Source: Mesobacillus sp. S13 (GTDB lineage: Bacteria; Bacillota; Bacilli; Bacillales; Cytobacillaceae). From it: a stretch of DNA of 64,000 nucleotides. Location: contig NZ_CP084622.1 in the NCBI RefSeq assembly GCF_020422885.1, forward strand, positions 1,445,001-1,509,000, given 5' to 3'. The notes beneath the pieces are model-generated. The model saw nothing but the letters and a program-made list of their open reading frames with translations. It was not told where the DNA came from and searched no databases. Shown here in pieces: positions 3,826 to 50,140 of this stretch (positions are counted from its first letter, which is position 1; each line of letters starts with the position of its first letter). The translations under genes were made by a program, and so were the position numbers.

Positions 3826-3848
3826 TTTTTGGCACAAGGGATGATTAA

Positions 3849-9196: not shown

Positions 9197-9311
9197 CTCA
9201 GATACCCCCGTTTCATTAGTGTGGTGCACATGGATTAACTAAGAATACATAAATATGATTTACCATTCATTATAACAAAATTTCTAAATATATAATATAA
9301 AGAAGCATATA

Positions 9312-31318: not shown

Positions 31319-31331
31319 GGGGGAATTCGTT

Positions 31332-34158: not shown

Positions 34159-36198
34159 ATGTTTATAACTCATAAACCTGAAAATATTGTTATTTTACAA
34201 GGAGAATATTCTCCGTCAATTGTATTTCTTTCGGTAGTCATCGCGTTTCTCGCTTCCTTTACTGCCCTTTCAATGAATGAGAGGATCAGAAAGAATGGTT
34301 TTTTTAGCAGGAATCTTTGGCTGGTCCTCGCGTCTATTGCTATGGGAATGGGGATTTGGGCGATGCATTTCATCGGAATGAGTGCTTTCAGGCTTCCGGT
34401 GACCATGGAATATAATTTTCCAGCCACTATCTTCTCTGTTTTTCCAGCGGTAATGGCTTCGTACCTGGCGTTTTATATCTCAAATCGGACCAACCTAACT
34501 CCGTGGCCTAAAATACTTGCCGGGATCATTATGGGAATCGGAATTGCTTCGATGCATTATATTGGAATGTCTGCGATGGAAATGGAAATCGAATATGCTT
34601 ATCGGCCAGTTCTATTCATTCTATCCATCCTGATTGCCATTCTTGTTTCCTATGTTGCGCTATACATATTTACCAGCCTGCAAAAGTTCATGGGAAACTT
34701 TTTTCTCAAGCTAATCACATCCTTATTGATGGGGATCGCTGTCGCCAGCATGCATTATATAGGTATGGAGGCGATTGTTTTTTATACGGAGGGAAATCCT
34801 CTGCCACCAACATCGCATACGCATCATATGAATTTGCAAATGCTCATTGTTTCTGTGACATTGGGCATTGGAGTGATCTTAGGACTTTCTGGTCTATCAA
34901 GCTTGCTCGATCGGTATGTCGATTTTCGTTTGAATCATTTCGATGCTTTGACAGGGATGCCAAATAGACGACAGTTTGAAAAAATGCTCAATGTCTCCTC
35001 GCCAGCAAGTTTGGCCATCCTCCACATACATGGACTGGAAAAGTGGAATAGACGATATGGCTATGAAGTTGGCGATGATGTGATTAAGACTATCAGCGAA
35101 ATTCTTGTCAAGCTCAAGCCCGCGTTCTGTATGTTGTACAGAATAGAAGGCAATCGCTTTGCCCTGGTCTTAGAGAATGAACCTGACACTGAAAAATTGA
35201 AAATTTCCCTGGAAAGAATCATGGCTTTTTTGAGTAAACCGTTAGTTATTAATGAAAAGAAATTGCCCATTGAAATGGTCTGCGCAGTGGCTTCTTCTGA
35301 AGCGAATGGCCGTCCAGAACTATTCTCGAATACGATGGCAGTACTTCAACATTCTAACACCGCTTATAATCATGCAGTGATTGAATATGACCCTAAAATC
35401 CATACCTTCGCTTTTGAGCGAAATCTGATTCAGGACATAGACAGGGCGATGCAGGAAGACGAACTTTTTGTTTTATACCAGCCTAAAATATGTTCCAAGA
35501 CTCGGGTCGTGTTTGGAGTTGAAGCTTTGCTTCGTTGGAAGCATTCCATACATGGTGTGATTTCACCAGGTATTTTTATACCGATTCTTGAAGAAAACGG
35601 GAAAATGCATGAAGTTACAGATTGGCTCATTGATCATGTATGCAAGCAAATCAGCTTTTGGAACAGTCATGAACTGCCAATTTTCAAGGTAGCGATCAAT
35701 ATACCAGGATCCTACTTTACATCACCACACTTAATGGAAACATTGAAGCAGAGCGTTTCGAAGTATGGGATCGAAAGCAATTATCTTGAGCTTGAAATTA
35801 CTGAGACGAGTGTAATTGATCAGATCGAAGATGCAATCAGGGCAGTTGGGGATTTCAAAGAATTTGGTTTTACGGTCGCCCTAGATGATTTTGGGACGGG
35901 CGTATCATCATTATCTTATTTAAAACGGCTGCCGATTTCGACCATGAAAATAGACAAATCCTTTGTGGATGATGTCCCTCAATCAGAAAAAGATTCTGCG
36001 ATCATGAAAGCCATCATTAGTCTCGGACATTCATTGAAATTAAAAGTGGTGATTGAGGGAGTGGAAAATGAAGAACAAATGAATTTCCTTTCCTCTAATT
36101 CCGAAAATCCAATTATTCAGGGTTATTTCTACTCTAAACCGCTAGATGCAGATGAGCTTGTTAGTTGGATCGATAATTTTAATGAGATTGCTGTCTGA
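34159..36198 (+). CDS. MHYT-GGDEF-EAL protein, predicted c-di-GMP phosphodiesterase
   Basis: 679 residues from ATG 34159 (AAGGGATG ten bases upstream; TTG 34150 is in frame). Residues 1-250: seven-helix MHYT sensor with three copies of the motif (AMHFIGMSAF, SMHYIGMSAM, SMHYIGMEAI), a proposed Cu/O2/NO-sensing module. Residues about 255-400: GGDEF-like domain whose active-site loop reads RIEGNRFALVL instead of GGDEF, so cyclase activity is unlikely. Residues about 415-675: EAL domain with EALLRW, ALDDFGTGVSSLSYL, MKIDKSF, VIEGVEN and QGYFYSKPL, all catalytic positions kept. Predicted to degrade c-di-GMP in response to a membrane signal. It resembles YkoW of B. subtilis in layout. Confidence 0.93.
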   Translation: MFITHKPENIVILQGEYSPSIVFLSVVIAFLASFTALSMNERIRKNGFFSRNLWLVLASIAMGMGIWAMHFIGMSAFRLPVTMEYNFPATIFSVFPAVMASYLAFYISNRTNLTPWPKILAGIIMGIGIASMHYIGMSAMEMEIEYAYRPVLFILSILIAILVSYVALYIFTSLQKFMGNFFLKLITSLLMGIAVASMHYIGMEAIVFYTEGNPLPPTSHTHHMNLQMLIVSVTLGIGVILGLSGLSSLLDRYVDFRLNHFDALTGMPNRRQFEKMLNVSSPASLAILHIHGLEKWNRRYGYEVGDDVIKTISEILVKLKPAFCMLYRIEGNRFALVLENEPDTEKLKISLERIMAFLSKPLVINEKKLPIEMVCAVASSEANGRPELFSNTMAVLQHSNTAYNHAVIEYDPKIHTFAFERNLIQDIDRAMQEDELFVLYQPKICSKTRVVFGVEALLRWKHSIHGVISPGIFIPILEENGKMHEVTDWLIDHVCKQISFWNSHELPIFKVAINIPGSYFTSPHLMETLKQSVSKYGIESNYLELEITETSVIDQIEDAIRAVGDFKEFGFTVALDDFGTGVSSLSYLKRLPISTMKIDKSFVDDVPQSEKDSAIMKAIISLGHSLKLKVVIEGVENEEQMNFLSSNSENPIIQGYFYSKPLDADELVSWIDNFNEIAV

Positions 36199-36291
36199 GA
36201 AAATATTCTATGAAACTTTTAATTTTTTCAAAATATACATGAGGTATCTTCATTTTTATGGCGATACATCTAAAACAAAGGAGAAAACTAG

Positions 36292-36981
36292 ATGAATTTA
36301 ACGATTTCACAGATCAAAAAGAAATCCCTTGCCACTTTAAAAGGAAAGTGGGGCCTTGCTGTCGCTCTTACTCTTATAGTTTTTCTGATCACGACGTTCG
36401 TGCCCACGATTGTAGAGATCTTGTTAAGTGGAGGATTTTCTCAGTGGTTTAATCAAACTGAAACGCCAGTAATTGCAGATATGGTTAATCTATTCATTTC
36501 ATTTTTATTCATCCCGCTGACGGTTGCCAGCTACTGGTTCTATTTAAGTATTGCCAGGTGGAATGACCCGAAAATCTCTGATGTATTTGCGGTATATAAA
36601 GAATGGGAGCTTTCACTTAAGTTAATCGGGACTTCGATCCTCGTTGGAATTTTTACGATGCTATGGGCTTTATTATTAATTATCCCAGGCATTATCAAAG
36701 GGCTATCCTATTCTCAAGTATTCTTCCTGCTTAGGGATAACCCGGAATTCTCGGCTCTTGAAGCGATTACGGAAAGTAAAGTCAGGATGAAAGGCTATAA
36801 GTGGAAATATTTCCTGATGAACCTCAGTTTTATAGGTTGGGCATTCATTGCCATCTTTACCCTTGGAATTGGTTTCCTTTGGCTGACTCCATACATCAGT
36901 ACAGCAAATGCAACCTTCTATAATGAATTGATCGCGCCGCAAGGCCATGAAGAACCGGAGTCAACGGATTTGGAAAGCTAA
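36292..36981 (+). CDS. DUF975 membrane protein
   Basis: 229 residues with the DUF975 opening TISQIKKKSLATLKGKWGLAV and four to five membrane segments; landmarks ALLLIIPGIIKGLSYSQVFFLLRDNPEFSALEAITESKVRMKGYKWKYF and LGIGFLWLTPYISTANATFYNEL. AAAGGAG precedes the ATG. These are widespread small integral membrane proteins in Firmicutes whose function is not known. It stands alone between the EAL gene and its own terminator. Confidence 0.9.
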   Translation: MNLTISQIKKKSLATLKGKWGLAVALTLIVFLITTFVPTIVEILLSGGFSQWFNQTETPVIADMVNLFISFLFIPLTVASYWFYLSIARWNDPKISDVFAVYKEWELSLKLIGTSILVGIFTMLWALLLIIPGIIKGLSYSQVFFLLRDNPEFSALEAITESKVRMKGYKWKYFLMNLSFIGWAFIAIFTLGIGFLWLTPYISTANATFYNELIAPQGHEEPESTDLES

Positions 36982-36992
36982 CATGAAAACGT

Positions 36993-37018
36993 CCAGCTAC
37001 TTGTAGCTGGGCTTTTTT
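36993..37018 (+). terminator. Terminator after the DUF975 gene
   Basis: CCAGCTAC pairs with GTAGCTGG across two bases, then GCTTTTTT. Confidence 0.85.
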
Positions 37019-37167
37019 ACGGACTTTCATTTATTAAGAAGTGTCTGTTTGCCATGTTTGTGTTCATGTAAAGCAGGCAGTCCAAACAAACGCAAAAAAT
37101 ATTGAAGGATAATTGTGGAAGATGCCGAATAGTATTAGTTCACGAAACTTAAGAAATGAGGGGAATT

Positions 37168-37719
37168 ATGGGAGTAGACAGATCTCAACTGTTTTTAATC
37201 GATCAGAAGGAAGGGTTCAAACCTACTTTCGGTCATCTGGTGTCTATGATGAATTATGTACGTTCCACTACCCTTGAAGCAGTAGAAGGCCTCACAAAAG
37301 AGGAACTGGATTTCCTAATTCATGATGAAGCAAATTCAATAGGCATGCTGCTTGCCCATATGGTTGCGGTAGAAAGAATCTATCAAATCGTGACTTTTGA
37401 GAGAAGGAATCCAACTGCTGAAGAGGAAGAAGCCCTTTCGGCAGGCCTAGAACTTGGGGGAAAAGGAAAGGCAGCATTCAAAGGGTTTCCTCTGGAACAT
37501 TATCTGGCTGATCTCGACGCTGCACGGGAAGATACGTACAATAAATTCCGGACACTTTCTGACGAGTGGCTGTTTGAGCAGACGAACTGGTGGTGGAACG
37601 AACAAGGAAACAATTACTTTAAATGGTTCCATGTGTTTGAAGATGAGATTAACCACCGAGGGCAGATTAGGATGATTAAAAAGATTTATAGTATAGAAAA
37701 AAATCATGTCGTTAAATGA
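37168..37719 (+). CDS. DinB/YfiT-like four-helix protein
   Basis: 183 residues from ATG 37168 (GAGGGG upstream; the frame opens at 37156). DinB landmarks: HLVSMMNYVRSTTLEAVEGLTKEELDF, the first metal His in IGMLLAHMVAVERIYQ, and the paired His in FKWFHVFEDEINHRGQIRMIKKIY at the C-terminal helix. Three His in such positions bind a divalent metal in this superfamily, which includes bacillithiol transferases and DNA-damage-inducible proteins. The substrate is unknown. Confidence 0.9.
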   Translation: MGVDRSQLFLIDQKEGFKPTFGHLVSMMNYVRSTTLEAVEGLTKEELDFLIHDEANSIGMLLAHMVAVERIYQIVTFERRNPTAEEEEALSAGLELGGKGKAAFKGFPLEHYLADLDAAREDTYNKFRTLSDEWLFEQTNWWWNEQGNNYFKWFHVFEDEINHRGQIRMIKKIYSIEKNHVVK

Positions 37720-37736
37720 CTCAATTTAAGCCTGTG

Positions 37737-37758
37737 GTACTCCGCGGGTGCTTTTTTT
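37737..37758 (+). terminator. Terminator after the DinB gene
   Basis: GTACTC pairs with GGGTGC (G-U pairs) across CGC, then TTTTTTT. Confidence 0.6.
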
Positions 37759-37820
37759 ATATTGAATGAATAATCAGAAAATAATATAATTAGTTAAAGA
37801 ATTAAAAAGGAGGTTTGCAT

Positions 37821-38432
37821 TTGAATAAGTTATATAAGGATTTTATATTTTTTCCTGATATTAGTATACTAATTGTTTTAATTCTTACGGGATTCGGAAC
37901 TTCTCTACTCAAGGGTATTACATGGTTCATGATTTTCTTTTTCCTTATTGGTATGATTGCCTTTGCTTTCAGCGAATACTTTACTCACCGTTTCTTTTTC
38001 CATATTAAGGCCCCGGAAAATCCTTTATTCCTGAGGTTCATGAAAAGAATCCACTATGACCATCATGCTGATCCTAACAACCTAAAGCTTCTTTTCCTGC
38101 CACTGTGGTACAGTCTTCCCGGTTTTTTAGTCCTGTCTTACCTCGTATATTTTATTTCCAATAGCTTCAATCTGTCCATAGCATTCGGTACCGGTCTGAT
38201 GACGATGCTATTGGTCTATGAATGGAAGCATTATGTTGCCCATCGTCCCATTAAGCCAAAGACCAAATTTGGACGTTGGGTAAAGCAAATCCATATACTT
38301 CATCACTACAAGAATGAAAACTTCTGGTATGGAGTCAGCACACCGTTTGCCGACTTTCTATTTGGAACCTTTAAGGATGAAAAAAATGTTGAAACAAGTA
38401 GAACAGTTAAGGAATTGGAAAAACGTGCGTAG
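37821..38432 (+). CDS. Fatty-acid hydroxylase superfamily membrane protein
   Basis: 203 residues from TTG 37821 (AAAAAGGAGG eight bases upstream; TTG 37815 in frame). Four membrane segments and the histidine boxes of the di-iron hydroxylase/desaturase family: EYFTHRFFFH (about 53-62), RIHYDHHADP (about 77-86), HYVAHRP (about 137-143) and HILHHYKNENFWYGV (about 156-170). Predicted to hydroxylate a membrane lipid using O2; substrate unknown. Single gene. Confidence 0.9.
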   Translation: MNKLYKDFIFFPDISILIVLILTGFGTSLLKGITWFMIFFFLIGMIAFAFSEYFTHRFFFHIKAPENPLFLRFMKRIHYDHHADPNNLKLLFLPLWYSLPGFLVLSYLVYFISNSFNLSIAFGTGLMTMLLVYEWKHYVAHRPIKPKTKFGRWVKQIHILHHYKNENFWYGVSTPFADFLFGTFKDEKNVETSRTVKELEKRA

Positions 38433-38518
38433 TCAGTATCAAGCCTGATTCCCTCTTAAGGAAATCAGGCTATTCAGTTGTTATCAGGTAGGAAAATAAC
38501 GAAATTTCTACAAATTTT

Positions 38519-38547
38519 TGAAACCTATTCCCATGACAATCGTATTA
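38519..38547 (+). promoter_or_regulatory. SigW promoter of the NfeD-flotillin operon
   Basis: TGAAAC (38519-38524), 16-base spacer, CGTATTA (38541-38547): an excellent match to the SigW form TGAAAC-N16-CGTA. 65 bases before the first gene. Confidence 0.85.
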
Positions 38548-38611
38548 CATATCAAGAAATAAATGGAATAAGGGAGGGTGCTTGTTCGATTTTAGCAAGG
38601 GGTGAGTAAAA

Positions 38612-39148
38612 ATGGAGCTGTTTGGCATACCATTAGAAACGATTTATTTTTACGGGTTGGTCATTTCGGGTGGTGTCACAATCATTTATTTATTTTTTGG
38701 GGATGCCCTTGAGGGACTGACAGAAGCTATTCCTTTTGTGAATCCAACTTTAATTTTTTCCTTTGTTGCGATTTTTTCAGCAGGTGGGTATTTAGGCGAA
38801 GTTTTTACAAAGCTGCACAGCGTTCTGATTGCTGCTGCTTCTGCAATTATTGCTCTTATTCTAGTCACTTTGCTGAATGTATTTGTGCTGATCCCACTAT
38901 CCAATGCTGAAGAGTCTCTCGTGTATAAAGAGAGTGACTTAAGAGGGAGGATTGGGACTGTCATAACTGGAATTCCGGTCGACGGCTATGGAGAGGTCAT
39001 GATTGAGAATATCAGCGGCCGCATCTCTAAGCCAGCTGTCAGCTTCACAAAAACTGAAATTCCATATGGAAAAAAAGTATTGATCATCGATATTGAAAAT
39101 GGAGTCCTGCAAGTCAAGATGTACGAAGAGTTAGAGACTTATATTTAG
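38612..39148 (+). CDS. yuaF: YuaF-like NfeD-family membrane protein
   Basis: 178 residues. Four membrane segments (about residues 10-100) are followed by a C-terminal OB-fold NfeD domain (LRGRIGTVITGIPVDGYGEVMIENISGRISKPAVSF). NfeD proteins are coupled to flotillins; YuaF of B. subtilis is encoded just before YuaG and is induced with it by SigW during cell-envelope stress. Here it lies 11 bases before the flotillin gene. The AAGGGGTGAG ribosome site precedes the ATG. Confidence 0.93.
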   Translation: MELFGIPLETIYFYGLVISGGVTIIYLFFGDALEGLTEAIPFVNPTLIFSFVAIFSAGGYLGEVFTKLHSVLIAAASAIIALILVTLLNVFVLIPLSNAEESLVYKESDLRGRIGTVITGIPVDGYGEVMIENISGRISKPAVSFTKTEIPYGKKVLIIDIENGVLQVKMYEELETYI

Positions 39149-39159
39149 GGGGAAAAGGT

Positions 39160-40707
39160 ATGGATCTTATGTTTATTGTTATTGGTTTTGTTGTTTTCCT
39201 TGTTATCGCAATGGTTGCCGTTTTCATCACCAAATATAAAACGGCTGGGCCTGACGAAGCCTTGATTGTTACGGGCAGCTTCTTGGGAAGCCGGAATGTG
39301 CACACGGATGAATCGAATAATAAAATAAAAATCATCCGAGGCGGCGGTACGTTCATCTTCCCTGTATTCCAGCAATCCCGCCCGTTAAGCCTGCTCTCGA
39401 GCAAGCTTGAAGTAACCACTCCGGAAGTTTACACAGAGCAAGGCGTGCCAGTAATGGCGGATGGAACGGCTATCATCAAGATTGGCGGATCCATCAGTGA
39501 AATCGCAACTGCTGCTGAGCAGTTTCTTGGAAAAACGAAAGAAGATCGGGAGAATGAAGCAAAGGAAGTTTTAGAAGGGCATTTGCGTTCCATTCTAGGA
39601 TCGATGACTGTAGAAGAAATCTATAAGAACCGTGATAAGTTCTCTCAGGAAGTCCAGCGTGTTGCATCACAGGATCTTGCAAAAATGGGACTTATCATTG
39701 TTTCATTCACAATCAAGGATGTCCGTGATAAAAACGGGTACCTTGACTCCCTTGGTAAACCTCGTATTGCCCAGGTAAAACGAGATGCGGACATCGCGAC
39801 GGCTGATGCGGAAAAAGAAACACGCATCAAGAAAGCGGAAGCGGATAAAGAAGCGAAGAAGGCAGAGTTTGAACGGGCGACTGAAATTGCCGAAGCTGAA
39901 AAAATCAATGGCCTTAAGATGGCGGAATTCCGCCGTGAGCAAGACATTGCCAAGGCACGTGCCGACCAGGCATATGACCTTGAAAATGCCCGTGCTCAGC
40001 AAGAGGTAACAGAGCAGGAAATGCAAGTAAAGATCATCGAGCGCCAAAAGCAAATCGAGCTCGAAGAAAAAGAAATTCTGCGTCGTGAACGCCAGTATGA
40101 TTCCGAGGTCAAGAAAAAGGCTGATGCTGACCGCTATGCTGTTGAACAATCCGCAGCAGCTGATAAGGCGAAGCAAATCGCTGAAGCAGATGCAAATAAA
40201 TACCGTATTGAAGCAATGGCTAAAGCGGAGGCAGAAAAAGTCCGTATGGATGGTATGGCAAAAGCAGAAGCCGAGCGCGCTCAGGGTGAATCAGAAGCTG
40301 AAATTATCCGCCTGAAAGGTCTCGCAGAAGCAGAAGCAAAAGAGAAGATCGCTGAAGCATTCGAACAGTTCGGCCAGGCTGCAATCCTTGACATGATTTT
40401 GAAAATGCTTCCTGAATACGCGAAGCAAGTTGCAGCGCCACTTGGAAACATTGACAAGATCACTGTTGTCGACACAGGAGGAAGTGACTCTAATGGCGGA
40501 GCGAACAAGGTAACGGGCTATGCCACCAATTTAATGGCAACACTTCAAGAGTCCTTAAAAGCTTCGTCAGGAATCGATGTCAAAGACCTAATCGAAAACT
40601 TCTCAGGAAAAGCGAATGTAAGACACAGTATTGATGCATTGACAGATGAAATTCGTGATACTAAGACCGAAAATAGGATTGAAGCTGTGATAAAACAGGA
40701 AGAATAG
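39160..40707 (+). CDS. yuaG: Flotillin (YuaG/FloT)
   Basis: 515 residues: N-terminal membrane hairpin (MDLMFIVIGFVVFLVIAMVAVFI), SPFH/PHB domain (about 30-210; GTFIFPVFQQSRPLSLLSSKLEV, RSILGSMTVEEIYKNRDKFSQEV), then a long Ala/Glu/Lys coiled coil (about 215-420) with the EAEAE-type repeats of flotillins, and a C-terminal tail. It organises functional membrane microdomains and helps the cell cope with envelope stress. Co-transcribed with the NfeD gene from a SigW promoter. A terminator and a phased 20 bp array follow. Confidence 0.96.
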   Translation: MDLMFIVIGFVVFLVIAMVAVFITKYKTAGPDEALIVTGSFLGSRNVHTDESNNKIKIIRGGGTFIFPVFQQSRPLSLLSSKLEVTTPEVYTEQGVPVMADGTAIIKIGGSISEIATAAEQFLGKTKEDRENEAKEVLEGHLRSILGSMTVEEIYKNRDKFSQEVQRVASQDLAKMGLIIVSFTIKDVRDKNGYLDSLGKPRIAQVKRDADIATADAEKETRIKKAEADKEAKKAEFERATEIAEAEKINGLKMAEFRREQDIAKARADQAYDLENARAQQEVTEQEMQVKIIERQKQIELEEKEILRRERQYDSEVKKKADADRYAVEQSAAADKAKQIAEADANKYRIEAMAKAEAEKVRMDGMAKAEAERAQGESEAEIIRLKGLAEAEAKEKIAEAFEQFGQAAILDMILKMLPEYAKQVAAPLGNIDKITVVDTGGSDSNGGANKVTGYATNLMATLQESLKASSGIDVKDLIENFSGKANVRHSIDALTDEIRDTKTENRIEAVIKQEE

Positions 40708-40712
40708 AAGGG

Positions 40713-40747
40713 AAACCCGCCTGGACACCGATTTCAGGCGGGTTTTT
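40713..40747 (+). terminator. Terminator of the flotillin operon
   Basis: AAACCCGCCTG pairs with CAGGCGGGTTT across eleven bases, then TT. Confidence 0.85.
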
Positions 40748-40827
40748 AATTGAGAAGGTACTATTATATAGTGATGAAAATCCATTTAATAGAGAAAATG
40801 TTATTTTTATATCCGAAAACAATTTTT

Positions 40828-40935
40828 TATAGCGACATATTCGATAATATAGCGACTTTTACAATTATATAGCGACTTTTTGATTTTTATAGCGAGTTTT
40901 TTTGTTTTATAGCGACTTTTTCGGTTTTATAGCGA
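40828..40935. repeat. Tandem array, 6 units of 20 bp
   Basis: TATAGCGA recurs at 40828, 40848, 40868, 40888, 40908 and 40928, an exact step of 20, each followed by C/G and a T-rich stretch. It lies between the converging flotillin and permease/peptidase-like genes. No ORF is supported in 40748-41020. Confidence 0.92.
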
Positions 40936-41020
40936 ACTGGAAAAAATCACTCGTTTTTTCCAGTTGCATTACAATAAAATCGCCTGAACTCACTAAAACA
41001 AGCTCAGGCGAACACAAACA

Positions 41021-43852
41021 CTATTCTTTTACCTCAGGTTTCAGCCATCCCTTGAAATATCCTTTTGCCTGTGGGTGGCCTGCTTTTTCAAAGAGTGTGA
41101 TTACATCGTGTCCAGATGCGTTTTTATTTGTATAGTCGTGGACATATGTTTTCATAGCTTTGTTTACTTTTCCGGCCTTCACTAAATAGTCCAGTTCAGC
41201 ATACATATTGTACCCTTGTATACCCATCATGACGGCGTAGTCATTGATATTTTTATAATCGCTTAATGGGCTGCTTAAATACTGGCCTTCTTTTTGGATT
41301 CTGGCGATTTCTTCTTGTTGTTTCATTTGTTCTTCTGCAGAGCTTCTGGCCATGTAGCCTTTTTCACCCATATAAGTTTTCAGGGAATAGCTCACGAGAC
41401 TTTCGTTTACCCACGGTTCTTTATATCCTTGGCTGCCGACCAAACCTGAAAGCCATTGACGAATCACGCCATCAGTCATGCTTAGTGATGTATAGCTGTT
41501 ATCAGAAAAATTATATCCAGCTGAGAAAATCATCCCCTGGTAAGCCATTTGTGGGTTGCCTTCCCCGGTACGGATGATATCCAGTTCTTTATAAGGTAAA
41601 GTTGAATCAAAAAACTCCTCAAAATAATCGATCGATTGACCGGCGCCCATTGCATTTCTGTTTGCTGTTTCTTGTTTATCAATGGCAGGGCGGTACCAAA
41701 CATTCACAAGTGTTTCATTACTGGTCATGAATCTTTCCGTTTGATAATACTGAGTATCCAATAAGACGATAGAAAAATCGCGGACACCCTCTACCTTCGC
41801 GCTATATTTCTTGTTTTCACCTTCGATTTCTGTTGTTGCATTTGCTTCTTCTGCATTCGAAAGAATCTCGTATTTAGCAGGGGCGTTAATGGCTACATCA
41901 TAGTTAGCTGTTTCACTATAAAAAGGAAATCCAAAAGGTGAATACGGATCCAGATTCCAGCCGTTTTTATCATGTACGGCCTGTATTGGCAGGAAACTGC
42001 CAAGCCATACTGCAGCATAATCATAGCTTGAATTGCTGTAATTCGAAGGGAGCTGAAAGTTGAATTGAATGTCCAGTTCAGCCGCAGACTTGGCTTTCCA
42101 CTCATCCATTTGTATTTCTAATATGGTGCCTTCGACTTTAAAATCTGCTTCCTGATTATTCACTTTGATGTCTTCAATCTCAATCCAGCCAGGTGTCGGT
42201 GAAGGGCCTCTGACAAATTCCCATTCCGGCCCATCAATCGGTTCCTTAAACTGGTTAGGGTACAGGTGGAAATAGATTTTATCCTGGTTGGCACCAGTCG
42301 TATTGGTTGTTGTGACATGCAGTTTTCCCTGCAATGTGGCATCAGCATCCAGATAGGTCAATTCGGCCTTATAATTGACCGGCTCATGCTCCTTATTGGT
42401 AAAGCTGTAACTAAATAAGTCTTTAGCCTCTTTGGGTTCAGTTGATGCACCGACACTTTTTTCCTCTTTCTTCGGATGATCCTCTGCGAAAAACTCCGCA
42501 TACGAAAATACACCCGCCCAAAGCACGAAGGCTACTGTCAATAATGCGGTAAATGCAGGCTTCGGGTATTCCGAGATACGTTCAGAAGCCCTTAGGACTA
42601 GCTTGTCAATGAATCGATAAACTCTATAGCGGTTCAAATACCTGCGGACCATCGTGAGTTTTTCTCTCATCAAGTCACTAATATATTTCTTCTTTTCATA
42701 CTCTTCCTTAGCTTGTTCGGGGACGCCTATTAGCACAAAATTTTTGGATTTGCGGGTGTTTGTTTTTACAACCTGCTCAGCTGCTGCTTTCACCCTATTT
42801 TTTACAGGTACGACTCCGGCTAAATTGTCCTCAATCCCTTTTTTCATCCAGTTTACGATGATGGCAATAAAAGCAATGATTAACATCGGACTGTAAGCCA
42901 TCCACGGGGCTCTTCGGATCAGCCAGAAGTTTTGTCCCGTCATACCGGCAAGCTCGTTGGTAATCGAACGGTAAATCATTCGTGGTGTATCAGTCAAAGG
43001 AGTCGGATGTGGCCCGCCTAAATACAATGAAAAGATTCCTAGAAACGTCAACAGCTGCAATATTGATAAAATTTGCTGTGTTGTCAATAAAAGAAAATGA
43101 GATTTGACGTTCGGCCATACATGCTTTTTCAACATGTGAAATTTGCTTGCTCCCATCAGTGTTGAGCTTAGCACATAAGGCTGTTTCTCAATTTCATCCA
43201 TCATATCAAGAATGTAATTATAGACGCCGGGAAGTCCGACCAGCAGCATGATGATCAATTGATATTCCAGTATGACCATTGCTGAAATACCGGTTGGGAA
43301 TGAAGCTACCGGAAGCATCAAAATAATCCCTACGAGCAATTGGGGAATATACCGGAATGGCCAAAAGAAAGCTAAGAAATATCGTCTAAAGCTCGGATAC
43401 AGTAACTTTGTTACAAGTGCCAGTAAGGTCCCAATCAATAATCGAGCAAGTGTTATCCCCATTACAGCACCGAGAGTATACTTAACTCCTACGAGCACCA
43501 AGTTAACCATGCTTCTTGCGCCCAAATCTGTCCCGAGCGGGAAGGTCAGTGAAGGGGGAGCTGGCGGTGCCGCGACAAATTTCCCATCCTCATCAAAAAT
43601 CAGCGGCTCATTACTCTCAGGCATCAGTTCTGTATTCCAGCTAATCAAGAATAAGGTGAGAAGTAGTGCTGAACCAACCATGATATTACGATGTTTATGA
43701 TGGTTGATATAGGAACTTATTTTCACGATCATCCTTAAAAGAGCCTTCATATAAAGGAATAATCCTATTTTTGCTTTTGGGGTATTAGCGCCTGCTTTAT
43801 TGTCAACAGACAATATTCCAGTCGGTAAAATTCTCTTTAATCTTCTTCTCAT
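41021..43852 (-). CDS. OppC-like ABC permease fused to an inactive M1-aminopeptidase-like domain
   Basis: 943 residues. Residues about 55-340 are a peptide-type (DppC/OppC) ABC permease with six membrane helices and a coupling loop (LSSTLMGASKFHMLKKHVWP, 228-247). A basic cytoplasmic linker (350-430) and one more helix (434-455) lead to an extracytoplasmic M1-peptidase-like part (about 485-943). Its zinc site is lost: where M1 enzymes have HELAHQW the sequence is DGVIRQW (794-800), though the third ligand Glu is kept at the exact spacing (VNES, E817). The substrate-binding GxMEN-type Glu is Ala (QMAYQG, A770). So it probably binds peptide without cutting it. Its ATG overlaps the stop of the upstream OppB-like gene by four bases. 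No ATPase or receptor gene is nearby. Confidence 0.85.
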   Translation of the reverse strand: MRRRLKRILPTGILSVDNKAGANTPKAKIGLFLYMKALLRMIVKISSYINHHKHRNIMVGSALLLTLFLISWNTELMPESNEPLIFDEDGKFVAAPPAPPSLTFPLGTDLGARSMVNLVLVGVKYTLGAVMGITLARLLIGTLLALVTKLLYPSFRRYFLAFFWPFRYIPQLLVGIILMLPVASFPTGISAMVILEYQLIIMLLVGLPGVYNYILDMMDEIEKQPYVLSSTLMGASKFHMLKKHVWPNVKSHFLLLTTQQILSILQLLTFLGIFSLYLGGPHPTPLTDTPRMIYRSITNELAGMTGQNFWLIRRAPWMAYSPMLIIAFIAIIVNWMKKGIEDNLAGVVPVKNRVKAAAEQVVKTNTRKSKNFVLIGVPEQAKEEYEKKKYISDLMREKLTMVRRYLNRYRVYRFIDKLVLRASERISEYPKPAFTALLTVAFVLWAGVFSYAEFFAEDHPKKEEKSVGASTEPKEAKDLFSYSFTNKEHEPVNYKAELTYLDADATLQGKLHVTTTNTTGANQDKIYFHLYPNQFKEPIDGPEWEFVRGPSPTPGWIEIEDIKVNNQEADFKVEGTILEIQMDEWKAKSAAELDIQFNFQLPSNYSNSSYDYAAVWLGSFLPIQAVHDKNGWNLDPYSPFGFPFYSETANYDVAINAPAKYEILSNAEEANATTEIEGENKKYSAKVEGVRDFSIVLLDTQYYQTERFMTSNETLVNVWYRPAIDKQETANRNAMGAGQSIDYFEEFFDSTLPYKELDIIRTGEGNPQMAYQGMIFSAGYNFSDNSYTSLSMTDGVIRQWLSGLVGSQGYKEPWVNESLVSYSLKTYMGEKGYMARSSAEEQMKQQEEIARIQKEGQYLSSPLSDYKNINDYAVMMGIQGYNMYAELDYLVKAGKVNKAMKTYVHDYTNKNASGHDVITLFEKAGHPQAKGYFKGWLKPEVKE

Positions 43853-44736
43853 ATATCCAGCCCCCGCACGCTTCCGAACTTTTTACCAATCAATGAAACG
43901 ATTCTTTCAACAATAATGACAGGAAGCATGAAAACTCCCACGTAATAAAAGATGCTTACTGGTGATGTGCTTCGCATCTGAAGCAGTTTATTGAGCTCCT
44001 TTATGTATCCATCTAGGACAAACATATGTTCAACTAGTACAAGGGTGGTTAAAACCATAAAGATAATGGTCTTAAAATGGATCGAGACAACCGGAACGAT
44101 ATTCCTGGTTAAATGCGAAAAAAGCAGATGCAGTCTAGATAACCCTTTTGCCTGGCCAAGGAGTATATAATGTTTTTCGAATTCTTCTTCCATAACCTTG
44201 ATCAAGTATTGAGCGAAAAATAACGACGGAAGGAGAGAGTTAATGATCATTGGGAAGATGATTGGTTCTTTGCCTGCCAGTCCGTACATGGTGACAAGGC
44301 GGATCTGGAACTCTCTGTAGAGCATGAACAAAAACAGTTGAATCATGAAAATGACCAGCAAATCCGGAAGCCCTTCAAAAAAGTTCAGGACATTCTTCAC
44401 TCTTAAACGGTATTTATACGGAAGATTCATAAATAAATAAGCAATCATACTTCCTATGAAAATAGTGAACAACAGACTGAAGAAAATAAGTTCAAGAGAA
44501 TATGTATAGCGATCAATGACACTTTCGGTGTTCCAGCTCTCAAAAAATTGCCAGCTGGAAGGCTTGAAAAATTGCATGACAGTATCCCTGATTACTTTTA
44601 AAAAGGATAACAAATTGACTCCAAGGTGTTCACTGTCAGGTTCCCGGAAGGTAAAAAGCCTTGGGAAGGCCATGAAAAATAAAAGACCTGCGATAGAGGT
44701 CAGAAATAAAAATGGGTAATGAATGATTTTTTTCAT
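43849..44736 (-). CDS. OppB/DppB-like ABC permease
   Basis: 295 residues, six membrane helices. The coupling loop reads HYILLGQAKGLSRLHLLFSHLTRNIVPVVSIHF (about 189-221), typical of peptide-transporter permeases (G-x-x-x-x-x-x-x-x-H-x-x-R-N). A long loop after the first helix (PDSEHLGVNLLSFLKVIRDTVMQFF) fits OppB-type proteins. It overlaps the fusion gene at 43852 (ATGA), so the two should be made in equal amounts and form a heterodimeric pore. The pair has no adjacent ATPase or binding protein; it would need one encoded elsewhere, or work in another way. Confidence 0.85.
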   Translation of the reverse strand: MKKIIHYPFLFLTSIAGLLFFMAFPRLFTFREPDSEHLGVNLLSFLKVIRDTVMQFFKPSSWQFFESWNTESVIDRYTYSLELIFFSLLFTIFIGSMIAYLFMNLPYKYRLRVKNVLNFFEGLPDLLVIFMIQLFLFMLYREFQIRLVTMYGLAGKEPIIFPMIINSLLPSLFFAQYLIKVMEEEFEKHYILLGQAKGLSRLHLLFSHLTRNIVPVVSIHFKTIIFMVLTTLVLVEHMFVLDGYIKELNKLLQMRSTSPVSIFYYVGVFMLPVIIVERIVSLIGKKFGSVRGLDI

Positions 44737-44833
44737 ACAATCTCCTTTGGAAAAAATTTCTTTTTTGTTTTGACGTAGTTAATTCATGAAAGGTTGCAAG
44801 ATTTTAAAATTTTTATTAATAATTTTGTGATAA

Positions 44834-44863
44834 TTGAAAAAATATTGTAATATGAATTATAAT
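44834..44863 (+). promoter_or_regulatory. SigA promoter of the M32 carboxypeptidase gene
   Basis: TTGAAA (44834-44839), 18-base spacer, TATAAT (44858-44863), 95 bases before the start codon. Confidence 0.6.
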
Positions 44864-44958
44864 AAACCGACTGGATAGTTTATTTAAATTTCTTATCAAC
44901 GCAAAATAGCTAGAATTCCAGGGGGAAATTCACTCAATCAGAAAGTGGGGAGATTGGC

Positions 44959-46491
44959 ATGGAAGCAAAGGTAATGAACCAATCAATCAAGTCTGCGCTC
45001 AAAAAGTTCAATGAATTAGATGAGAAGATTTCGCATTTTAATAGTATTTTAGGTTTGTTAAGCTGGGATCAAAAGGTCATCTCACCAAAAAAAGGACGTT
45101 CCATTTTTGCAAATGCTAACGGAACACTGAGAACAGAAGCGTTCAAGCTTACTGTATCAGAAGAAATGGGAGAGCTTCTAAGTACACTCAGCACACCTGA
45201 AGCGGAGGAGTACCTTGATGATACTGCAAAGGCAAAGGTACGAGAACGGCTAAGTTTTTATAAACGTTCAAACAGGATTCCGGCTGAAATGATTAAAGAT
45301 TTTTCAGTGCTTACATCAAAAGCGAATGATGCCTGGGAAGAAGCCAGGGAGAATAATGATTTTGATAGATATCTCCCGTACCTTGAGAAGATAGTAGATT
45401 TTAAAAGGAAAGCCGTAGAAATTTACGGTTATGAAAACCATCCATATGATGCGCTCCTTGATGAATTTGAGCCTGGTCTGACAGTTGAAAAGCTCGATCC
45501 ATTGTTTCGTAAATTACGAGAATCAAGTACTGATTTGCTAAAAAGAATTCAAGCGTCTTCTGACAAACCGTCAGTCGAAATATTCGAGCAGTCATATCCG
45601 GTAGAGAAGCAGAAAGAATTCAATCGGTACATTTTGCCGCTAATCGGCTTTGATATGGAAGCAGGAAGGCTGGATGAAACGGTCCATCCATTTGCACAAA
45701 CTGTGAATACAGGGGATGTCAGGATTACGACCAGGTATCTTGAAAATAATGTCCGATCGGCTATATTTGGAACAATTCACGAAGCTGGACATGGTATTTA
45801 TGAACAAAATATCAACCCAGAGTTCCAGGATTCAGTTTTACAGGAAGGTGCTTCATTTGGTATTCATGAATCTCAATCCCGATTCCTGGAAAATATGGTG
45901 GGACGCAGCGAGGAATTCTGGAAGTACTTCTATCCGAAGCTGCAGGTACATTTTCCGGAACAATTAGGGGATGTGGAATTGGACGATTTCTATCGTGCCA
46001 CCAATGCTGTCCAGCCTTCCTTCATCAGGGTGGAGGCAGATGAGCTTACCTATAATCTTCATATCATGGTTCGCTATGAAATTGAGAAAGCATTGATTGC
46101 CGGGGAAATAGAGGCAAAGGACCTGCCTGGAATCTGGAACGAAAAAATGAAGGATTATCTCGGCATCACACCATCCACTGACAGTGAAGGCGTCCTTCAG
46201 GATATCCACTGGTCATTTGGAGGACTGGGATACTTCCCATCGTACTCTCTTGGAAATCTATATGCTGCACAAATCTTGAATAAGATCAAGAAAGATGTAC
46301 CAGCTTTCTATGAAAGTATCGAGCAGGGAAATTTTGCAGTGATTCAGGAATGGTTGAAAGAAAATATCCATCAGTACGGAATGCTGTATACTCCAAATGA
46401 ACTGATCGTCAAAGCTACCGGTGAAGAATTGAATGCGGATTATCTGGTACAGTACCTGGAAGAGAAGTATAGTAAGGTATATAAACTTTAA
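44959..46491 (+). CDS. M32-family metallocarboxypeptidase (Taq type)
   Basis: 510 residues, all-helical. Zinc motif HEAGH in GTIHEAGHGIYEQNINP (about 272-276), third ligand region FGIHESQSRFLENMVG (Glu), and the M32 motif DVRITTRYLENN upstream. It removes C-terminal residues, with broad specificity, in the cytosol. GTGGGGAG precedes the ATG; an ATG at 44974 is also in frame. Same strand as the TetR gene that starts 27 bases after its stop, so the two may share a transcript. Confidence 0.96.
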   Translation: MEAKVMNQSIKSALKKFNELDEKISHFNSILGLLSWDQKVISPKKGRSIFANANGTLRTEAFKLTVSEEMGELLSTLSTPEAEEYLDDTAKAKVRERLSFYKRSNRIPAEMIKDFSVLTSKANDAWEEARENNDFDRYLPYLEKIVDFKRKAVEIYGYENHPYDALLDEFEPGLTVEKLDPLFRKLRESSTDLLKRIQASSDKPSVEIFEQSYPVEKQKEFNRYILPLIGFDMEAGRLDETVHPFAQTVNTGDVRITTRYLENNVRSAIFGTIHEAGHGIYEQNINPEFQDSVLQEGASFGIHESQSRFLENMVGRSEEFWKYFYPKLQVHFPEQLGDVELDDFYRATNAVQPSFIRVEADELTYNLHIMVRYEIEKALIAGEIEAKDLPGIWNEKMKDYLGITPSTDSEGVLQDIHWSFGGLGYFPSYSLGNLYAAQILNKIKKDVPAFYESIEQGNFAVIQEWLKENIHQYGMLYTPNELIVKATGEELNADYLVQYLEEKYSKVYKL

Positions 46492-46518
46492 TCATCGCGA
46501 AAAAATGGGGTAAATCAA

Positions 46519-47136
46519 ATGACGCCAATTGTTTCAGAGGAATATAAGGAAAAGAAGCGTCAGGAAATCTTGCAGAGTGCCCATGCTTGCTTTGCCGAAA
46601 AGGGATTTGAAGCTTCGACAGTTGATGATATTGTGGCCCGTTCCGGACTGAGCAAGGGGGCAATTTACAATTACTTCAAAAGTAAAGATGAAATTTATCT
46701 TGCTTTGATGGAAGGTCAAACAAATGACTCAGGAAGTAAATTTGCCAAAGCCATTGCGGAGCGTGAGACATCATTGGAAAAACTCAATTACCTGATTGAG
46801 GCCTACTTGAACAATGACCCCAATGATGAAGAGAATATCGGACATGCGATTGTCCATTACGAGTTCAGATTGTACTCGACACGGAACCCGAAGTTAAAGG
46901 GGATGTTGACTGAACGATACAGGGACTTCTTTGTCTCACTGCTGACAGGGATCATTAAAGAAGGTCAAACAGCTGGTGAATTCAACAAAGAGCTTGATCC
47001 ACAGACATATGCGGATATATTTTGGGCGATTGTTAATGGGGCCACATTGCAGGCTACCATACTTGAAGATTACCAATATAAACATATATTAAGAGAAATG
47101 CAGACGATATTCTTGGAAAAACTAAGCTTAAAATGA
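46519..47136 (+). CDS. TetR/AcrR-family transcriptional regulator
   Basis: 205 residues. N-terminal HTH of TetR type (RQEILQSAHACFAEKGFEASTVDDIVARSGLSKGAIYNYFKSKDEIYLALME, about 14-65), then a helical ligand domain with a TetR_C-like part (YADIFWAIVNGATLQATILEDY). The ligand is unknown. It lies close downstream of the M32 gene, and a strong terminator follows. No efflux pump is adjacent, so the target is not evident. Confidence 0.94.
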   Translation: MTPIVSEEYKEKKRQEILQSAHACFAEKGFEASTVDDIVARSGLSKGAIYNYFKSKDEIYLALMEGQTNDSGSKFAKAIAERETSLEKLNYLIEAYLNNDPNDEENIGHAIVHYEFRLYSTRNPKLKGMLTERYRDFFVSLLTGIIKEGQTAGEFNKELDPQTYADIFWAIVNGATLQATILEDYQYKHILREMQTIFLEKLSLK

Positions 47137-47138
47137 TT

Positions 47139-47168
47139 AAAAACCAGTGAGGATTCTCACTGGTTTTT
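47139..47168. terminator. Bidirectional terminator
   Basis: AAAAACCAGTGAG pairs with CTCACTGGTTTTT across four bases; between the converging TetR and antiporter genes. Confidence 0.9.
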
Positions 47169-47191
47169 AGTTTGCTGTTAGCGATCCGCAT

Positions 47192-48694
47192 TTAATTAAG
47201 ATCTAGCGTATCTTGTTGATATTTTGCTTTTTCCTTCAAAAGCTTCTTCAGTTTCGGTTTATTCTTCCTCCCTGAAAGGATGTAGAGGAAATCACCTGCC
47301 ATGATGACAGTATTGCCGGTAGGTGCAATCAGTTTGCCGTGGCGGATAATTGCATTCACTAGTGTTCCTTCAGGAAAGTGGATATCCATCAACGTTTTAC
47401 CGACAATCGCACTATCACTTTCCATTTCATATTCAATCATCTCGGCATCTGCTTTTCCAAGTGAAATCAGCTCAAGTGACTGCATTGGAATTGTTTTCTT
47501 AGGACCGTTCAATCCCAGCTTATTAGCTAGCATTGGAATAGTAGCCCCCTGGATCAGTGCGCTTGTCAGCACGACGAAGAAGACAACATTGAAGATTTGA
47601 TGGCTGCCCTCAATTCCAGCTAGTAAAGGGAAGGTAGCGAGGATGATAGGGACGGCACCTTTTAATCCTGCCCATGAAAGGAAAATACGCTCTTTTTGGG
47701 AGTAATCCATTTTTATTGTTGAAATAAACACAGCTGCAGGTCTTGCCACCATCATCAGGATCACGGATATCAATATGCCCTGAATCAAAATAGCCAGATT
47801 GAAAAGTTCAGATGGAAAGACAAGGAGTCCAAGAATGACAAACATTAGAATCTGCATCATCCAGGCGAAACCTTCGGTAAAACGGAAAATAGAATGCCGA
47901 TATGCAATCTCAGCGTTTCCAATGGTAATCGCCGCAATGTATACGGCCAAAAGACCGCTTCCATTCAAGAACGTAGTTACTCCATAAGTCAGCAAAGCAA
48001 ATGCGGTCGCGAAAACCGGATAAAGGCCACTGGAATCAAGGTTTATCGAATTCAATGATTTGACAGCGACCTTTCCAAAAATCACACCAAGTATCAGGCC
48101 AAGTCCCATCTGCAAAAAGAAGTCTCCAATCAACTTTAGGATACTAGCATCAGGAATCGTAATAAGTTCAATCATTGCTACTGTTAAGAATACTGCCATC
48201 GGATCATTGGATCCAGACTCTGCTTCGAGAGTAGAACCGAGTTTTGGTGAAATATTATGGCCTTTCAAGACTGCAAAAACAGCTGCGGCATCCGTGGAGC
48301 CAACAATTGCCCCAAATAAAATGGCTTCTAACCAATCAAGCCCCAAAATCATTTTCGCAGCGACGGCAACAATTCCAGAGGTGATTAGAACCCCAACCGT
48401 TGCAAGTGATAAAGAAGGGATAATGACTGGCTTGACATCTTTCAGATCAGTCTGCAGGCCGCCTTCAAACAGGATTATGACTAGGGCGATAACACCGATC
48501 ATCTGAGCCAGTCCTGCATTATCAAAATATATGATGCCAAGAACATCACTGCCCATGACCATACCGACCATGATAAAGAAAATCAAAGAAGGAACCCCAA
48601 GTCTGGTTGAAAATCTCGTGGTTAAAACTCCTACAATGAATAAAAATGCTAAAAGCAGGATAAAAGAGTCTGTACTAATTACATGTTCAGGCAA
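47192..48694 (-). CDS. K+/H+ antiporter (CPA1/NhaP2-like) with C-terminal RCK_C domain
   Basis: 500 residues from TTG 48694 (AAGGGGGAG upstream). Twelve or so membrane helices with the antiporter motifs GVIALVIILFEGGLQTD, ILFGAIVGSTDAAAVFAVLKG and LEAESGSNDPMAVFLTV (the ND pair carries ions), FLSWAGLKGAVPIILATFPLL; then a TrkA_C/RCK_C domain (about 400-480; SDSAIVGKTLMDIHFPEGTLVNAIIRHGKLIAPTG), a nucleotide or ligand sensor. It exports K+ or Na+ for protons in pH and ion homeostasis. Its start lies only 14 bases after a recombinase-like gene. Confidence 0.94.
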   Translation of the reverse strand: MPEHVISTDSFILLLAFLFIVGVLTTRFSTRLGVPSLIFFIMVGMVMGSDVLGIIYFDNAGLAQMIGVIALVIILFEGGLQTDLKDVKPVIIPSLSLATVGVLITSGIVAVAAKMILGLDWLEAILFGAIVGSTDAAAVFAVLKGHNISPKLGSTLEAESGSNDPMAVFLTVAMIELITIPDASILKLIGDFFLQMGLGLILGVIFGKVAVKSLNSINLDSSGLYPVFATAFALLTYGVTTFLNGSGLLAVYIAAITIGNAEIAYRHSIFRFTEGFAWMMQILMFVILGLLVFPSELFNLAILIQGILISVILMMVARPAAVFISTIKMDYSQKERIFLSWAGLKGAVPIILATFPLLAGIEGSHQIFNVVFFVVLTSALIQGATIPMLANKLGLNGPKKTIPMQSLELISLGKADAEMIEYEMESDSAIVGKTLMDIHFPEGTLVNAIIRHGKLIAPTGNTVIMAGDFLYILSGRKNKPKLKKLLKEKAKYQQDTLDLN

Positions 48695-48708
48695 TAAAAA
48701 CTCCCCCT

Positions 48709-49263
48709 TTATAAATTGATATCAATCTTAACGGGTACTGCTTCCACGTCCACTCCAATAAAGTGCTTCGTTTCGGAAGGTGAGGCATGCTGGAGTCTCT
48801 TTTGGATCAGTGAAATGGCAACGCCCTGGGAGTAGGCATGGTAGCCAAATGTTTTTCTGAGGGTGATCATACCTACCGGTTCATCAATACCGGCATTTTT
48901 TGCTGCGGCATTGATAATCCGGTAGGCTTGTTGCCGTGTAATAGGGTTAGAAGTTTTTCGTGATTTAAAAAGATAGTCTGAATCAATCAAAGTATTTTCG
49001 GATAAATACTTCTTAAGGGAACTCCTGATAGGAGCATTTAAGTAAACAGGGGGATTGCTATAGGAAGGAATAGAAAGCACATCTGCTACTTTTCCGTCCT
49101 GCTGGCACACATCGTGTACACGCAGGCTAAGTAAATCTTGAAGTTTGATTCCAGTATTGATCCCAAGTAAAAATAAACAAAAATCCCTGGTTGAGTGATT
49201 TTCGAGGAAATCTTTCATGAGCTTAATCTTATTTTTCGATTTAATTGGACTTACCGTCTTCAT
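48709..49263 (-). CDS. Degenerate tyrosine recombinase-like protein
   Basis: 184 residues from ATG 49263 (AAGGAG upstream; TTG 49266 in frame). Only the catalytic fold is present, without an arm-binding domain. Compared with active members: the first Arg is Lys (TGIKLQDLLSL for TGLRISDLL), the H of HxLR is Ile (GMITLRKTFGYHAY), and the nucleophile Tyr is Phe (SETKHFIGVD for TxxYIGI); the second Arg is kept. Strand-exchange activity is therefore unlikely, though DNA binding may persist. It is followed after 14 bases by the antiporter gene in the same direction. No attachment site or mobile genes are seen. Confidence 0.82.
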   Translation of the reverse strand: MKTVSPIKSKNKIKLMKDFLENHSTRDFCLFLLGINTGIKLQDLLSLRVHDVCQQDGKVADVLSIPSYSNPPVYLNAPIRSSLKKYLSENTLIDSDYLFKSRKTSNPITRQQAYRIINAAAKNAGIDEPVGMITLRKTFGYHAYSQGVAISLIQKRLQHASPSETKHFIGVDVEAVPVKIDINL

Positions 49264-49403
49264 CAAATCACTCCTTACGTAACTTAATTATATAATAAAT
49301 ATACTTTATGTAACATATAAAATGCTTGTGAATTTTTTGTTAAGCTGATATCAAATGTTATAATGAACAGTATCGAAAAAATAGGATTAATCAGGAGGCA
49401 ATT

Positions 49404-49874
49404 ATGCTGACTTTTGAACAAAAACTTGCAATCATTGAATCATTCCCTGAACTCGAACGGAAAAATGTCTCTTTAGGCCGTGTGAACTTTCATTTTGCGG
49501 AAAGTATTTATGACAAGAAAAATGTTGTGTATCATCTTCATCCTAATGGAAATGGCTTTGTCTATGGAGAGTTTTTAGATGGCTATGATGTCGATCCGAA
49601 GGGCTTGGTAAATATCCGAGATTTTACTGAGGAAGAATTGAAAAACATCATTGAACAATCGATTCAATCACTGTCAGCCAACAGTACCGTTGAATCTGCC
49701 ATCATTGAGGACAATGAGGAGGAGCGTTGGGTCAATTCAGAAAACCATACATTGATTCTTGTTCATGAAGATGAAATGTGGAACGTGTATGCCGGCCTGA
49801 ATCTTGACGGTACATTCCTTTCGTATAATGAGGCAAAACAGTATTTAGAAGAAGAAGGATTCAGAAAAAGGTAA
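49404..49874 (+). CDS. Hypothetical acidic protein
   Basis: 156 residues, MLTFEQKLAIIESFPELERK, rich in Glu, with aromatic-rich strands (VVYHLHPNGNGFVYGEFLDGYDVDPKGLVNIRDF) and a second half (TLILVHEDEMWNVYAGLNLDGTFLSYNEAKQYLEEEGFRKR) that looks like a small alpha/beta domain. No signal peptide or membrane segment. AGGAGG precedes the ATG. I do not recognise a functional family; the conserved-looking content suggests a cytosolic Bacillus protein of unknown role. Divergent from the recombinase-like gene. Confidence 0.82.
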   Translation: MLTFEQKLAIIESFPELERKNVSLGRVNFHFAESIYDKKNVVYHLHPNGNGFVYGEFLDGYDVDPKGLVNIRDFTEEELKNIIEQSIQSLSANSTVESAIIEDNEEERWVNSENHTLILVHEDEMWNVYAGLNLDGTFLSYNEAKQYLEEEGFRKR

Positions 49875-49902
49875 AAAGGATGCCCGCGGGCATCCTTTTT
49901 TC
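49874..49902 (+). terminator. Terminator of the hypothetical gene
   Basis: AAAGGATGCCC pairs with GGGCATCCTTT across two bases, then T-run; starts at the stop codon. Confidence 0.88.
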
Positions 49903-49923
49903 TATTGTACCTGGATAAGATTA

Positions 49924-50140
49924 GTGTCTAGCTCCAGCGCCTAGCCAGTTTTCATCCCCGAGATTGCTTCCTCGATTATCTTGCGAGAAGCTTTAGCTTT
50001 GAGCAGCTCGAAACGTTTGTCTAGCTGCGGCTCCTAACTCCTCGAGACGTTTCGGTCCTGCCAATGAAGTCAAAGAGCGACTTCATTGGCAAACCCTCCA
50101 ACGCGTATGGGGGCTGACCAAGGCGCTTGCGCTTTTCTTA
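49924..50140. repeat. Dispersed intergenic repeat, copy C (long form)
   Basis: Begins GTGTCTAGCTCCAGCGCCTAG, ends GACCAAGGCGCTTGCGCTTTTCTTA. Inside is an inverted repeat TGCCAATGAAGTC/GACTTCATTGGCA (about 50059-50091). Its last bases form part of the stop codon of the chemoreceptor gene at 50138. The centre is closely similar to copy D. Confidence 0.88.

Follow-up and report, generated by a model that had tools for sequence, protein, structure and literature searches.

The reverse strand of a 64,000-nucleotide stretch of the Mesobacillus sp. S13 genome (contig NZ_CP084622.1, positions 1,445,001 to 1,509,000; hereafter the window) carries an OppB-like permease gene followed by an OppC-like permease gene that runs on into a domain resembling M1 aminopeptidases (Table 1). 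This architecture, read in the initial annotation from the sequence alone, was borne out: the gene is one unbroken frame of 943 codons. An assembly artefact or join as the origin of the fusion was ruled out, because the same full-length architecture recurs in many genomes. Both halves of the window protein score slightly below the curated Pfam cut-offs (BPD_transp_1, 25.6 versus 26.4 bits over residues 139-340; Peptidase_M1, 26.4 versus 27.7 bits over residues 796-925), and a six-frame search of the genome returned a Peptidase_M1 match of 28.5 bits, above the cut-off. A relative of the same type, P0037, gave no BPD_transp_1 match at an E-value of 0.1. The permease half retains, in its coupling (EAA) loop, a conserved glycine and HxxP, which we take to be the EAA coupling-loop motif, and the additional helix at residues 433-451 would place the C-terminal domain outside the cell. 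Likeness to the importer subunits OppC and DppC covers the BPD_transp_1 region, the OppB partner and the coupling loop, with a match to the DppC structure 8wd9_C at an E-value of 9e-5; unlike these subunits, the window protein adds a seventh helix and an M1 ectodomain, and its locus has no Opp-type ATPase or binding-protein gene.

Table 1. Features of the permease gene pair in window coordinates and, in the last four rows, of FtsX-type fusions in coordinates of their own loci.
Feature	Position	Strand	Basis or remark
OppC-like permease fused to M1-like ectodomain, 943 aa	41021..43852	-	single unbroken frame, homologues, AlphaFold2 model, structure comparison
OppB-like partner permease, 295 aa	43849..44736	-	precedes the fusion gene with a 4-base overlap
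Permease domain, residues 57-345, with EAA-type coupling loop SSTLMGASKFHMLKKHVWPN	42818..43684	-	BPD_transp_1 match 139-340
Cytoplasmic linker, residues 346-430	42563..42817	-	fast evolving; low model confidence 347-389; gene split here in two relatives
Extra transmembrane helix, residues 433-451	42500..42556	-	hydropathy; helix 432-455 in model
M1-like two-domain ectodomain, residues 488-943	41024..42391	-	model, structure comparison, Pfam PF01433
Degenerate zinc motif D794-G-V-I-R798, where HExxH is expected	41459..41473	-	alignment
E817, third zinc-ligand position, retained (38/39 rows)	41402..41404	-	alignment
A770 at the GxMEN-type Glu position	41543..41545	-	alignment
G877 at the catalytic Tyr position	41222..41224	-	alignment
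Divergent gene, presumed M32-type carboxypeptidase, carrying HEAGH	44959..46491	+	context only
FtsX-M1, L222	2133-6338		adjacent ABC ATPase 6361-7053
FtsX-M1, L223	3926-8911		adjacent ABC ATPase 8904-9599
FtsX-M1, L068	4527-9074		ATPase 3838-4530, by motif
FtsX-M1, L071	13421-17395		ATPase 12726-13433, by eye

An AlphaFold2 model of the ectodomain, with predicted local distance difference test values mostly about 90 across residues 488-940, shows the M1 arrangement of an N-terminal saddle and a thermolysin-like domain, although two of the alignments supplied to the program (A1 and A4) contain intact relatives from the M1 family, and this tilts the prediction towards an M1-like result. Structure comparison also supported the fold. 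The two-domain organization matches that of the M1 peptidase of Deinococcus radiodurans (6a8z), factor F3 (1z1w) and PepN (2dq6), in which an N-terminal domain accompanies the catalytic one; the window ectodomain differs from these in sharing only 12-15% identity with them, in having every tested catalytic residue but E817 replaced, and in lying behind an ATP-binding cassette (ABC) permease.

To examine the active site, the window protein was aligned with 38 homologues of the same architecture (P0001-P0035 and P0037-P0039; P0036, the M1 half of a split gene, was left out) and with 11 unfused M1 relatives (P0163-P0173). The alignment confirmed the residues on which the initial annotation had based its reading of a pseudo-enzyme with a preserved fold, namely DGVIR at residues 794-798 in place of HExxH, alanine at the GxMEN-type glutamate and E817 at the exact HExxH-x18-E spacing, and revealed one loss missing from it, that of the catalytic tyrosine, here G877. 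We take as catalytic the tyrosine found 84 residues after the first zinc histidine in the intact unfused relatives. Across the 39 same-architecture rows, which are clusters with many close kin and whose counts are not independent events, the GxMEN glutamate position holds A/S/N in 27/11/1 rows, the first histidine D/E/N/P in 28/9/1/1, the general-base glutamate G/A/E in 35/2/2, the second histidine R/S in 38/1, the third ligand E/D in 38/1 and the tyrosine G/N/S/A/T/F in 21/12/3/1/1/1. The GxMEN-type glutamate and the catalytic tyrosine are each present in 0 of the 39, and all six positions are intact in 11 of 11 unfused relatives. The window domain is thus very probably a non-enzymatic M1 fold fused to a permease. 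Continued hydrolysis through migrated residues or another metal is highly improbable: most rows have an acidic residue at both 794 (D or E) and 817 (E), and the two could coordinate a cation, but only two rows keep the general base, arginine replaces the second histidine in all but one, the tyrosine is gone throughout, and HExxH stands unaltered in every unfused relative. Co-conservation suggests that D794, R798 and E817 may form a salt bridge where zinc would otherwise be bound. Databases name six proteins of this type (P0009, P0021, P0030, P0031, P0037 and P0039) 'M1 family aminopeptidase', and their active sites say otherwise.

The unfused proteins P0163-P0173, M1 peptidases of a lipoprotein type, are the closest unfused relatives found, at 35-41% identity to the P0038 ectodomain; the two of the eleven that are named are both from Neobacillus. 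All 11 carry HETAHQW, whereas the window protein is fused and has lost the site, and starts such as LLAGC, read by eye, suggest that they are anchored on the outside. A pre-fusion state, with such an M1 gene beside an OppBC pair, was sought in 80 loci, some shorter than 10 kb, and no permease-like open reading frame was detected there with hidden Markov models; nor did ten loci from the taxonomic family show one, and no OppC-like gene was found in eight loci of genus g42 (probably Neobacillus) that carry the lipoprotein-type M1. The genome scan for unfused M1 genes, whose loci are the matches listed, used patterns such as HETAHQW and is therefore uninformative on the frequency of dead unfused M1 proteins. 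A plasmid origin of the M1 part was also considered, and a tblastn search against plasmids gave 8 records, all below 60% identity. In 7 of the 8 genus g42 loci (L150-L157), a multidrug-transporter-like gene, recognized by eye, adjoins the unfused M1 gene, and in two other proteins (P0174 and P0175) a YceI-like domain (Pfam PF04264) is fused to an intact M1 domain akin to that of the window protein.

Of 21 genomes examined in the genus, 13 carry an OppC-M1 locus of the window type, hereafter family A; the gene is fused in 11 of these and split in the linker in 2. In the split copies (G016 and G019) the permease and the M1 part are separate overlapping frames in one-contig assemblies, and sequencing error is one possible source of the split. 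The covalent joining of domain to pore emphasized in the initial annotation accordingly stands for 11 of the 13 loci but is perhaps not essential. Outside the genus, the matches listed for 249 genomes of the order include family-A copies in one genome only, the two of Peribacillus acanthi (P0037 and P0039, genome G065), and an OppB-like gene adjoins these as well as all 13 copies of the genus. The homologue searches behind this family and a second one described below scored the nearest 7990 and 7998 candidates; no OppC-M1-sized frame beyond the two families was noticed among the matches listed for 398 genomes of the class.

Selection within the genus was measured on its 11 fused coding sequences as the ratio of nonsynonymous to synonymous rates (dN/dS; Nei-Gojobori, 55 pairs, which are not independent of one another). 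The permease is the most constrained part (median 0.069 over 44 usable pairs, 11 of the 55 being unusable), followed by the former catalytic part of the ectodomain (0.079, 54 pairs), the ectodomain as a whole (0.100, 55 pairs) and the linker (0.327, 53 pairs). In the 39-row alignment 103 of 459 ectodomain columns are near-invariant, R798 and E817 among them, and in the homologue search the full-length architecture was retained down to about 40% identity. By its sequence the ectodomain is enzymatically dead, yet it is not drifting and is under purifying selection.

A second group of OppC-M1 fusions, family B (P0046 type, about 800 aa), came to attention because five relatives from other genera had fusions of 795-820 aa with HExxH; it occurs in Cytobacillus, Neobacillus, M. 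harenae and others, and four members (P0046, P0107, P0111 and P0114) exceed the curated BPD_transp_1 cut-off. The parts stand in the same order as in the window protein. Wider flanks were read for 10 family-B loci. All 10 have, directly upstream, an OppB-like gene whose product is 287-303 aa long, and no Opp-type ATPase or binding protein was seen there by eye; an exporter-type ABC gene set lies some kilobases away in two loci (L039 and L212). A single clade for all OppC-M1 proteins was rejected by approximately unbiased tests on the M1 tree (p 3.4e-05) and on the permease tree (p 2.9e-04), with the caveats that each compared two trees after a quick search with long rows present and that long branches meet in the permease tree. 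One fusion event for all these proteins can accordingly be set aside, and the trees provide evidence for two independent fusions.

Family B was listed at 52 loci in 51 genomes, out of 193 genomes of the taxonomic family; this count excludes the re-fetched duplicates L210-L215, and the site counts exclude P0108, P0109 and P0112, which have no M1 site. The five site positions are intact in 46 of the 52 and broken in 6, although the 46 include two that fall short of a clean full-length fusion (L171 contains a stop, and L176 is an M1 part alone). The OppC-M1 architecture thus also exists with enzymes that appear, by their residues, to work. Such homologues with an intact HExxH had been named beforehand as evidence that would overturn the dead-site call; they do exist but leave it standing for the window gene, since family B is a separate fusion on both trees. 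The active site was lost about four times within family B. Genes resembling recU/ponA, a small heat-shock gene and a helicase gene, identified by eye, surround most intact and broken copies in the wide-flank loci L038-L043 and L211-L214, so that the broken copies look like same-place orthologues of the intact ones; L039 is a second copy in genome G027, located elsewhere. With one conserved place and both intact and broken sites, family B offers a natural comparison for the role of a fused fold without its chemistry. Evidence for two independent fusions and for repeated site loss is the main gain over the initial annotation, whose observation was confirmed and whose interpretation was supported in part: the pseudo-enzyme reading stands, and the function proposed there, capture of peptides for the joined pore, is a plausible candidate.

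The proposal that the M1 domain replaces a separate binding protein was not substantiated. No ATPase or binding-protein gene was seen by eye among the open reading frames at window positions 36000-50000, and a motif scan of the window picked up a single ABC ATPase (31311-32069), which belongs to another gene set; such scans are coarse, and at least two exporter-type ATPases that can be recognized by eye escaped them (L039 5411-6343 and L212 2515-3177), each adjoining its own permease gene. The same genome, however, contains five orphan OppB/OppC sets that have no M1 domain (L049 7060-8996, L050 7333-10142, L052 7779-9553, L216 6481-8362 and L217 7347-9165), and no ATPase or binding protein was seen alongside these either, so the absence does not depend on the M1 domain. 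Our finding also bears on orphan OppB/OppC pairs lacking an ATPase. In two loci, each from another family of the order (L046 7885-9885 and L047 6688-8772), OppB and OppC are themselves fused in one protein of 666-694 aa, with no ATPase nearby by motif.

A plausible history would begin when a newly gained seventh helix attached an M1 metallopeptidase, like the lipoprotein-type M1 proteins of Neobacillus, to an orphan OppC; the zinc site and its chemistry would then have been lost, the fold staying under selection. The result would be a pseudo-peptidase tethered outside the cell on the OppC half of an OppB/OppC-type pore. Without any catalysis, it would act as a fixed module for docking or gating at the outer pore mouth, binding either a partner protein or peptides, and an OppDF-type ATPase that also serves another operon would energise the pore. 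That such joining and site loss happened more than once in related bacteria suggests that the shape of the domain may benefit the pore even with its chemistry gone. We give docking or gating somewhat less than an even chance, and the explanation as a whole, though the best available, is held just as tentatively. We infer that the pore transports, that its ATPase is shared and that the domain binds something: a working pore is favoured by the retained coupling loop and the strongly constrained permease, and, with no local ATPase, would need a shared one.

Several observations weigh against this docking or gating role. The GxMEN glutamate, which we take to be the usual anchor of a peptide N-terminus, is lost in 39 of 39 rows, which argues against binding of that usual kind. 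Broken family-B M1 domains are less constrained than intact ones (dN/dS 0.28 and 0.22 in two pairs versus 0.105-0.163 in six), and two family-B-type permeases of 649 aa (P0108 and P0109) consist of two tandem OppC copies with M1 absent. The ectodomain can therefore be lost, which slightly lowered our estimate for docking or gating. These facts, together with the lost catalytic residues, the two split copies and a stem of 1.73 above P0113/P0114 that reflects faster M1 drift in broken family-B lineages, would also fit an M1 part that is merely tolerated, decaying baggage on a working permease, but such a relic is improbable given the constraint on the M1 part in the window's own clade, its near-invariant columns and the retention of full length. 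With regard to energy supply, the genome's 12 oligo_HPY ATPase hits are spread over six places, all of which have one of the six SBP_bac_5 hits close by, so that no spare OppDF pair is evident among the oligo_HPY-bearing ATPases covered by the search. Precedent exists in MsmX of B. subtilis, which serves sugar importers, but such sharing is documented for sugar importers and described as rather uncommon (PMC7658222).

In a somewhat less probable reading, the OppB/OppC pair no longer transports but is a membrane scaffold or sensor, whose pseudo-peptidase binds a protein, a peptide or part of the wall outside the cell and signals or regulates through the linker. The loss of the GxMEN glutamate and the lack of ATPase and binding protein beside both this pair and the M1-less orphan sets make it a close rival, the OppDF-type ATPases being accounted for at six other places, and pseudopeptidases often bind proteins, as with yeast Tma108, of family M1, which binds nascent chains (PMC11266112). 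Against it stand the glycine and HxxP of the coupling loop and the constraint on the permease domain, as expected if an ATPase is still met.

The C39-like domain of the exporter HlyB, which we take to face the cytosol, offers the nearest parallel. Dead peptidase domains on transporters are already known from such exporters, and the HlyB domain, a degenerate peptidase domain on an ABC transporter as in the window protein, is reported to tether cargo (PMC8277102). It is N-terminal, of a cysteine-peptidase fold and part of an exporter with its own nucleotide-binding domain, whereas the window protein has a C-terminal M1 domain on an importer-type permease without one; the N-terminal C39 fold and exporter context of peptidase-containing ABC transporters are thus absent here. 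The M1 shell might likewise keep peptides or a partner close to the mouth of the pore. Literature searches for an importer-type permease with an outside M1 pseudo-enzyme returned nothing on point by title and abstract.

A related case is the 846-aa Chloroflexi protein P0043, a single known sequence in which OppC is followed by an M28-like domain (31.4 bits versus a cut-off of 21.3), that is, by an exopeptidase fold as in the window protein but a different one. Its nearest solved relatives are chains of nicalin, an inactive protein, and the EE that we take to be the M28 metal motif reads GG by eye and looks degenerate. FtsX-type ABC permeases of about 800-1660 aa carry an intact C-terminal M1 domain in six of the six read (P0153 and P0159, assigned by Pfam, and L068, L071, L222 and L223, assigned by eye). 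The attachment of exopeptidases to ABC permeases thus seems to be a design that recurs, with loss of chemistry seen here in the OppC-linked cases. A broader and rather doubtful possibility is that OppC-type permeases acquired extracellular exopeptidases as covalently attached ectodomains on several occasions, and that these repeatedly turned into non-catalytic receptors. M1 would have been taken up twice in the Bacillaceae, with one clade entirely dead and the other having lost its site about four times, and M28 perhaps once in Chloroflexi. Importers with fused substrate-binding proteins are known; repeated capture, if true, would be a third route to substrate recognition by ABC importers beside free and fused solute-binding proteins.

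Among neighbouring features, the presumed M32-type carboxypeptidase gene adjoins all 13 family-A loci of the genus, and no such gene was seen next to the copies in P. acanthi (L058). Just 3' of the fusion gene, window positions 40830-40945 hold short repeated units of the kind TATAGCGACTTTTT, and the same downstream gap in L044 and L045 holds other repeat-bearing frames.
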